Shown piece after piece: positions 3,903 through 5,939 of a stretch of 64,000 nucleotides of DNA (within the stretch, counting starts at the first letter, position 1; each line of letters starts with the position of its first letter). The translations under genes were made by a program, and so were the position numbers. The notes beneath the pieces are model-generated. The model was given only the letters and a program-made list of their open reading frames with translations. It did no database searches and was not told the origin of the DNA. The stretch lies in assembly GCF_000512915.1 (NCBI RefSeq), contig NZ_CP007034.1, positions 806,001 to 870,000 on the forward strand. The letters run 5' to 3'. Origin of the DNA: Barnesiella viscericola DSM 18177. Lineage in GTDB: Bacteria > Bacteroidota > Bacteroidia > Bacteroidales > Barnesiellaceae.

Positions 3903-5198
3903 TCAAAATCCGAAGAAGAGCTCGAACATCTCTGCAGCCTCCTCATCGGCTTCCTCGATCTGGTCTACATATTTTTTGGCAATCGTCTTGGACAAATTGT
4001 TTGCCCGGGTATTGGCGGCACATTTCTTGAACCACTCTTTGGCTTCGGTGGTTTTCTCGTCGGCATAGAGAAGCAACCCCAAATGACACTGCGCCAGCGC
4101 GTCGCCATTGTTGGCCCGCGATCGCAGCTCGCCAGCGGTGGCGGCGGCATAGTCAAAGCCCGAGCGATATTGTTGCAACCACTTGCGGGAGCAGAGAGCC
4201 GAAGCCGTGAGATACCCGCCTTTGTCGTAATACTTGACGGCTATCTGGTAATCCTTGATTACTCCCCCCCCTGTCTCGTAACAGGTTCCCAGTTTGAAGC
4301 AGGCCTCTCGCTCTCCCTGTTCAGCCGCCTCGGTATACCAATGAGCCGCCGTCGTGACGTTGCGGTCGACGCCTACCCCATCATGATAGCAATCGCCCAA
4401 TTTCAGCGAGGCTTTGCCATATCCCTGTTTTGCGGCTTGACGCCACCAGTACACGGCTTGCTCGTAGTTCCCATCGTCAAAATACTGCTGCCCCAGCACA
4501 TACTGCGACACATCGATTCCCGACTGGGCATTGGCCAACGTCGAGGGGTCGACATGCGAGCCCGACGATGACGAAGAAGTGGATGCCGTCGAGGCCGACG
4601 TTGTGGAACTGCCGTCGGCCGACAGGCCCAGCTTGGACAGCCGCTGGCGGGCATCCTCATTGCCGCTCGCAGCCGCCTTGCGATAGTAACTGATGGCCAG
4701 CGACCGGTTGGAGGCAACCCCCTCCCCATTTTCGTAACACCAGCCCAGGTTATAGCAGGCCGAAGGGAACTCCTGGTCGGCAGCCTTCTTGTACCACAAA
4801 ACCGCCTTTTCGTAACTCCGCTCGACACCCCGTCCGTAGTAGTAGCACTCGCCCAGGTTGTTCTGCGAGAAGCGGTTGCCCTGGTCGGCGCTGCGACGAT
4901 ACCAGTACGCCGCCTCGCCGAAATCTCGTGCGGTGCCGTAAGCATTTTCATAGAAGTAGCCTACCCACGACTGGGCATAGGCATTGCCTTGCTCGGCCGC
5001 TTTCTTGGCCCAATAAAAAGCCTTGCTGTCATCTTTCGGTGCCCCTTCTTTACCTTCCCAGTATCGCATGGCCAAATCATACTGAGCATCGGAGTCCCCA
5101 CTTTCGGCGCGCTGCTGCAATTCGCTCAGCGTCTCGCCCCACACAGCTGTCGTGCTGCCGAGAAACAACAGCACGAAGCACAAAAACACATGTTTCAT
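3903..5198 (-). CDS. Secreted Sel1-repeat protein
   Basis: 431 residues with signal peptide 1-21. Two blocks of Sel1-like (SLR, TPR-related) repeats follow: about residues 25-195 and 228-320, with signatures such as DAQYDLAMRYWEGKEG, AYAQSWVGYFYENAYG and ACYNLGWCYENGEG. A Ser/Thr-rich linker at about 198-215 separates the blocks. The C-terminal ~100 residues are degenerate repeats ending in an acidic helix. Sel1 repeats are protein-binding scaffolds; the partner is unknown. No separate promoter is seen between its ATG and the terminator at 5240-5281, so it may be expressed by read-through of the structured leader RNA upstream. Confidence 0.85.
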   Translation of the reverse strand: MKHVFLCFVLLFLGSTTAVWGETLSELQQRAESGDSDAQYDLAMRYWEGKEGAPKDDSKAFYWAKKAAEQGNAYAQSWVGYFYENAYGTARDFGEAAYWYRRSADQGNRFSQNNLGECYYYGRGVERSYEKAVLWYKKAADQEFPSACYNLGWCYENGEGVASNRSLAISYYRKAAASGNEDARQRLSKLGLSADGSSTTSASTASTSSSSSGSHVDPSTLANAQSGIDVSQYVLGQQYFDDGNYEQAVYWWRQAAKQGYGKASLKLGDCYHDGVGVDRNVTTAAHWYTEAAEQGEREACFKLGTCYETGGGVIKDYQIAVKYYDKGGYLTASALCSRKWLQQYRSGFDYAAATAGELRSRANNGDALAQCHLGLLLYADEKTTEAKEWFKKCAANTRANNLSKTIAKKYVDQIEEADEEAAEMFELFFGF

Positions 5199-5239
5199 AA
5201 TCCCTTTTTTTCAACTATTCTAAAATAATAAAACGCATG

Positions 5240-5281
5240 CTTTAAAAAGGAAAGCCCGGCATCTTCTCCAAGAACCGGGCT
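5240..5281 (-). terminator. Terminator of the structured RNA, upstream of the Sel1 gene
   Basis: On the minus strand AGCCCGG (5281-5275) pairs with CCGGGCT (5259-5253). An inner TTCT/AGAA helix is also present, and TTCCTTTTTAAA follows. It lies 42 nt before the Sel1 ATG. Confidence 0.7.
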
Positions 5282-5482
5282 ATATAAGGGGTCGTATCAA
5301 AGGATGCGATGAAACTCCGAAAGACAGGATTTGAGGGCCTCCGCTCCTTTGTAATCCACCGTGCAAAGCATACCTCGAAAGGTTGTGGCCCGCCATTGGA
5401 ACGGAAAGCGTGTCTCGGTATTTCATAATTTTTGATGAGTTTCCCAATCTACTCTGATACGACCGGGCTTTCTCTTTCTCTT
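5240..5482 (-). ncRNA. Structured RNA with own promoter and terminator; candidate sRNA or leader switch
   Basis: The transcript predicted from the promoter at 5488-5518 folds into nested helices. Helix 1 is 13 bp (5452-5464 with 5290-5302, one G.U). Helix 2 is 5437-5443 with 5311-5317. Helix 3 is 5411-5417 with 5318-5326, with a 2-nt bulge. Helix 4 is 5387-5391 with 5335-5339. Inside lie a UUCG-loop hairpin at 5372-5383 and a hairpin pairing 5364-5368 with 5347-5351. A terminator follows. The 5' AAAGCCCGG (5463-5471) repeats the left arm of the terminator, so it can pair with the terminator's 3' arm (5251-5259). It does not read as tmRNA, RNase P RNA or SRP RNA. A 6S-like RNA is possible but no diagnostic motif was recognised. 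The Sel1 gene starts 42 nt after the terminator, so this could be its riboswitch-like leader. Confidence 0.6.
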
Positions 5483-5487
5483 TGATA

Positions 5488-5518
5488 CAAAGCTATACAT
5501 TTCCTTTGAGAATACAAA
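5488..5518 (-). promoter_or_regulatory. Promoter of the structured RNA
   Basis: On the minus strand TTTG (5518-5515), a 19-nt spacer and TAGCTTTG (5495-5488) give a full match to the Bacteroidetes housekeeping promoter. Transcription would start near 5482. Confidence 0.75.
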
Positions 5519-5528
5519 ATATTTCGGT

Positions 5529-5565
5529 AAAAAAAATTAGGGATTTCTCCATGAGGAATCCCTAA
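5529..5565 (-). terminator. Terminator of thrS-infC-rpmI-rplT operon
   Basis: TTAGGGATT (5537-5545) pairs with AATCCCTAA (5557-5565). On the minus strand the hairpin is followed by a run of eight T. It lies 30 bp after the rplT stop. Confidence 0.85.
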
Positions 5566-5594
5566 CTCTATCATAAGAAGATGGTTTGTCTTTC

Positions 5595-5939
5595 TTATTT
5601 TACTTTCTCGACGATAGCCTTGAAAGCTTCGGGGTTGTTCATAGCCAGGTCGGCCAGAACCTTGCGGTTGATTTCGATGCCGGCTTTGTGAAGGGCGCCC
5701 ATCAGTTTCGAATAGGACATGCCTTCGAGGCGAGCGGCTGCATTGATACGTTGAATCCACAATGCACGGAAATTGCGCTTATTGTTTTTGCGGTCACGGT
5801 AGGCATAGGTCAAACCTTTTTCCCAAGTGTTCTTGGCAACGGTCCATACGTTTTTGCGCGAACCATAATAACCGCGGGTAAGTTTAAGAATTTTTTTTCT
5901 TTTTGCTCTTGAAGCAACGTGATTTACTGATCTTGGCAT
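5595..5939 (-). CDS. rplT: 50S ribosomal protein L20
   Basis: 114 residues, full length. It begins [19 protein letters not shown] and carries [16 protein letters not shown] and [19 protein letters not shown], all characteristic of L20. It binds 23S rRNA early in 50S assembly. It is the last gene of the thrS operon, 124 bp after rpmI, and is followed by a clear terminator. In other bacteria L20 represses its own operon; whether the 124-bp gap holds such a site cannot be judged by eye. Confidence 0.98.

Follow-up and report, generated by a model that had tools for sequence, protein, structure and literature searches.

A Bacteroidales-1 RNA beside rplT in Barnesiella viscericola, probably a 6S RNA, with a leader complementary to its own terminator

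The question raised by this locus is whether the structured minus-strand RNA encoded between rplT and a Sel1-repeat gene serves as a switch for the gene that follows it or as an independent regulator with a function of its own. The locus lies in a stretch of 64,000 nucleotides of Barnesiella viscericola DSM 18177 (hereafter the window), and the preliminary description, made from the letters alone, gave precedence to a riboswitch-like leader of Sel1 with an independent 6S-like small RNA as the stated alternative. The features named there were all found in the sequence and are collected in Table 1; the promoter TTTG-N19-TAGCTTTG, the 13-bp closing stem (one G-U pair included), the UUCG hairpin and the intrinsic terminator are present at the places given for them. 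The spacing of Sel1 from the terminator had to be corrected, as its ATG lies 45 nt beyond the T-run and not 42. Transcription would begin near 5482, as judged from the DNA. The stretch 5200-5500(-) is predicted to fold with -89.8 kcal/mol, whereas its shuffled versions average -75.7 (z -2.75); one shuffle in 100 was at least as stable.

Table 1 Elements of the RNA locus and of its downstream gene, in window coordinates
Feature	Position	Strand	Basis or remark
-33 element TTTG of primary-sigma (sigma-ABfr type) promoter	5515..5518	-	sequence; consensus from the available text of PMC7366714
-7 element TAGCTTTG	5488..5495	-	sequence; 19-nt spacer to TTTG
Leader copy AAAGCCCGG, complementary to terminator 3' arm	5463..5471	-	sequence
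Probable 6S RNA body	5284..5464	-	RF01693 full-length match, E 9.4e-27
Closing stem, 5' arm GGTCGTATCAGAG	5452..5464	-	sequence, covariation
Closing stem, 3' arm CTTTGATACGACC	5290..5302	-	sequence, covariation
Proposed inner stem, 5' arm GAAACTC	5437..5443	-	nearly invariant, hence little covariation support
Proposed inner stem, 3' arm GAGTTTC	5311..5317	-	sequence
Apical stem, 5' arm	5398..5409	-	paired in Rfam structure line; covariation
Apical stem, 3' arm	5337..5347	-	paired in Rfam structure line; covariation
UUCG-capped hairpin CCTTTCGAGG	5373..5382	-	sequence, Rfam alignment
Intrinsic terminator, ATAGCCCGG arm	5244..5283	-	sequence, folding
Terminator left arm AGCCCGG	5275..5281	-	
Terminator 3' arm CCGGGCTTT	5251..5259	-	
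Terminator T-run	5244..5248	-	
Sel1-repeat gene	3903..5198	-	ATG at 5198

The identity of the RNA was addressed by a cmscan comparison of the window with Rfam 15, in which two matches rose above their cut-offs, namely one tRNA and RF01693. The latter aligns with the RNA body over the full model (positions 1-179 of 179) at 156.5 bits, the cut-off being 60, so that the earlier statement that no known class could be recognised did not stand. RF01693 is the family Bacteroidales-1, which Rfam labels "6S-Bacteroidales RNA suggested". Matches of the window to mir-365, RgsA, SurA and snR30 scored far under the respective cut-offs and were regarded as fortuitous. It is therefore well supported that the structured RNA is a further member of a known Rfam family and no new riboswitch; an apparent orphan riboswitch would thereby become an ordinary global regulator. 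The available text of PMC2864571 classes Bacteroidales-1 as an RNA ("Y") and puts "?" under both cis-regulation and switch.

RF01693 occurs as one copy in the whole genome, and homologues were found in all nine Barnesiella genomes examined. Of 393 genomes sampled from the order, 106 have one, and in 76 the score exceeds the cut-off. A full-length model built from our alignment widened the family little, matching 109 of the 393 genomes while missing some that RF01693 finds (e.g. G012). For comparison across genomes 94 loci were assembled, comprising 90 of the 106 matching order genomes and four further genomes of the genus, with 16 low scorers left out.

On this evidence we hold with high confidence that the structured RNA is the 6S RNA gene (ssrS) of Barnesiella, for which a 6S mode of action and a pairing of the 3' end are proposed below; the independent 6S-like RNA of the preliminary description was, by the full-length RF01693 match, the right choice. 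The locus resembles E. coli ssrS (RF00013) in length, in its predicted rod shape with a closing stem and in being, probably, an independent gene, and it shares with RF01693 the full-length match, its own promoter and terminator sequences and the single copy. In the available text of PMC7366714, dRNA-seq of B. thetaiotaomicron is stated to have detected the 6S RNA of Bacteroides together with product RNAs of two classes, and we infer that this 6S RNA is RF01693; the same text cites a survey of 6S RNAs (Wehner 2014). PMC9723704 mentions a 6S RNA in Flavobacterium, while the passages of PMC5581868 and PMC7160235 have no relevance to this RNA. Several observations speak against the assignment. The Rfam wording is "suggested", the classical 6S model RF00013 gave no match at E <= 0.001 in the whole genome, and the upstream neighbour in the window is rplT, unlike the zapA neighbour of E. 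coli ssrS. The 6S-Flavo model (RF01685) did not match the window copy in cmscan; over the RF01693 stretch of divergent homologues it gave weak matches (L076, E 0.0012; L092, E 0.0067; L094, E 0.042; L088, E 0.056), all under the family cut-off of 85 bits.

The genomic neighbourhood, sought in about 1.5 kb on each side of every locus, offers a further connection with known 6S genes. In five of the 94 loci (L088 and L091-L094), which are among the lowest-scoring and most divergent RF01693 homologues fetched, the closing stem starts 18-37 nt past the zapA stop codon with rny shortly downstream, the Pfam ZapA family being assigned in three of the five and RNase Y in one. Since ssrS of E. coli K-12 starts 41 nt after zapA, the shared neighbour supports common descent, although 89 of the 94 loci, like the window, lack the zapA link. 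In all five the closing stem measures 12-15 bp and five or more T come immediately after it; as the stem leads into the T-run without a gap, it may itself be the terminator.

Covariation was examined on an alignment of 64 loci out of the 94, chosen for higher scores and ease of alignment. In the RNAalifold drawing all nine counted pairs of the closing stem had changed on both sides. Over the whole hand-drawn structure two-sided changes were seen in 24 of 39 pairs and 94.3% of cells pair, values biased towards the drawn structure, since its stems were counted on the same alignment used for drawing. Sliding the stem arms lowered the paired cells to 39.1-45.0%, and none of 500 shuffles reached the observed value on any of the five covariation measures. 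The helices are thus conserved in relatives, with the closing and apical stems covarying and the middle pairs almost constant, and the absence of conservation or covariation that the preliminary description named as grounds for refutation is not seen; GAAACTC with GAGTTTC, and CCGAGACA with TGTC and TCGG, hardly vary. Because these middle stems are nearly invariant, the pairings drawn for the middle of the rod are plausible candidates for its fold. A middle pairing proposed by RNAalifold (UUGG/CCGA) was set aside for the hand-drawn stems, few of whose pairs vary. In the RF01693 structure line of Rfam the closing stem is left unpaired in spite of its covariation, and the family model could be extended by it.

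A role of the RNA as a riboswitch or other cis-acting leader, controlling Sel1 through alternative terminator and antiterminator folds, draws on the order of structured domain, terminator and gene, on the near-equal energy of the two folds described below, and on the lack of a TAnnTTTG element in the gap that separates the Sel1 ATG from the terminator; the sole such element on the minus strand of 5151-5600 belongs to the RNA. The neighbours across the family point elsewhere. Within the 1.5 kb or so searched, Sel1 lies downstream in six of the 94 loci, all of them among the nine Barnesiella loci, which makes this lead reading of the preliminary description unlikely; it was rejected on these counts, and we consider it highly improbable. 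The conserved RNA is that of RF01693, whose loci have no constant downstream gene, and the three Barnesiella species without Sel1 at this place (L002, L003 and L007) retain the complementarity between leader and terminator. In these three the next gene resembles the window's own DUF1599 gene (assigned by Pfam), which there comes after Sel1. RplT is found upstream in 29 of the 94 loci, the window among them. As a separate observation, the Sel1-repeat gene follows the putative 6S gene in six of nine Barnesiella loci and is missing in three, indicating gain or loss within the genus.

Signals of an independent gene recur across the family. Upstream, at a distance of no more than 90 nt, 49 of the 94 loci carry TTTG-N17..22-TAnnTTTG where 0.14 were expected, and 81 carry the -7 element alone where 5.74 were expected; the expectations come from shuffles of single bases, as do the controls for the leader and for the boxA-like word treated below, and such shuffles are weaker than a dinucleotide-preserving control. 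The 3' ends of 93 loci (L073, cut by a contig end, was excluded here and from the leader-pairing counts) fell into 56 with a separate hairpin only, 17 with a U-run right after the closing stem only, 11 with both and 9 with neither, under a crude classifier whose stem ends are visibly misplaced in the distant L070-L072, L089 and L092-L094.

Following the reading as a 6S RNA, the gene would have a primary-sigma promoter and a terminator to itself and give rise to a rod of RNA about 240 nt long, in which the covarying closing stem is followed by an asymmetric, conserved middle and by the apical stem. By analogy with the family, the RNA most likely mimics an open promoter and would sequester the primary-sigma form of RNA polymerase as growth slows; the 6S RNA would be released once the polymerase copies a short product RNA from it. 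In Barnesiella, complementarity and folding energies suggest an additional step, in which the leader would pair with the 3' arm of the terminator and lengthen the closing stem after termination.

That step concerns the second claim of the preliminary description, namely that a copy of the terminator left arm near the 5' end could pair with the 3' arm over 9 bp and that two exclusive folds therefore exist. The pairing is there, with a length of 10 bp in place of 9, and the alternative folds hold as well, the leader-paired fold of the window copy (-76.8 kcal/mol) and the terminator fold (-75.8 kcal/mol) lying 1 kcal/mol apart if the transcript starts at 5482. Leader and downstream 3' arm share 8-11 exactly complementary base pairs in all nine Barnesiella loci, while the longest such match in the other 84 loci is 8 bp, in two of them; the complementarity is accordingly specific to Barnesiella among the loci sampled. 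The duplex energy was reached by none of 100 single-base leader shuffles in eight of the nine loci and by 3 of 100 in L009, and among the 84 loci outside the genus a single one had an energy that no more than 1 shuffle in 100 reached. Expressed as leader-paired minus terminator fold, the energy differences in kcal/mol are -1.0 (L001), +0.6 (L002), +2.8 (L003), +1.8 (L004), -1.0 (L005), -0.3 (L006), -0.9 (L007), -0.6 (L008) and -4.4 (L009), so that the two folds lie less than 3 kcal/mol apart in eight of nine loci.

Two interpretations of this complementarity have to be weighed. It may lack any function within the 6S RNA, being a chance or inherited word that close kinship has preserved, and this is the account towards which we lean. 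It is confined to one genus whose nine loci have a mean identity of 96.6% in the core and hence do not count as independent cases. The word AAAGCCCGG occurs often in the genome, at 40 sites, and its reversed control at 39; the leader shuffles that equalled the length of the exact match numbered 3 of 100 in L002, 6 in L003 and 1 in L009. Furthermore, a local hairpin should form first, and the terminator fold is favoured energetically in L002-L004. Pulling in the other direction is the retention of AAAGCCC in the leader and of CGGGCTTT in the right arm in nine of nine loci, despite a mean identity that falls to 76% in the terminator stretch and to 57% in the DNA beyond, and with hairpin loops that differ; in L002 and L009 the left arm of the terminator is altered while leader and right arm are kept. 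These retained words hint at selection on leader pairing, which is unproven because the nine loci are close relatives.

Leader pairing may remodel the 3' end of the RNA after termination. It is conceivable, if doubtful in our estimate, that in the 6S RNA of Barnesiella the leader ousts the left arm of the terminator hairpin after the hairpin has freed the transcript, and that by pairing with the 3' arm it extends the closing stem and seals the 3' end. An early invasion by the leader could in turn let transcription read into the next gene. For the Bacteroidales 6S family the locus bears on three points, these being the covarying closing stem, the divergent members adjacent to zapA and a possible rearrangement from terminator to stem in Barnesiella.

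A minor observation concerns the DNA ahead of the RNA. A word GTTCTTTGA or GTTCTTTAA, which we take to resemble the boxA antitermination signal, stands ahead of the RNA match, at a distance of 18-30 nt, in L040, L080, L088, L091, L092 and L094, that is in six of 94 loci where base shuffles led to an expectation of 0.1.
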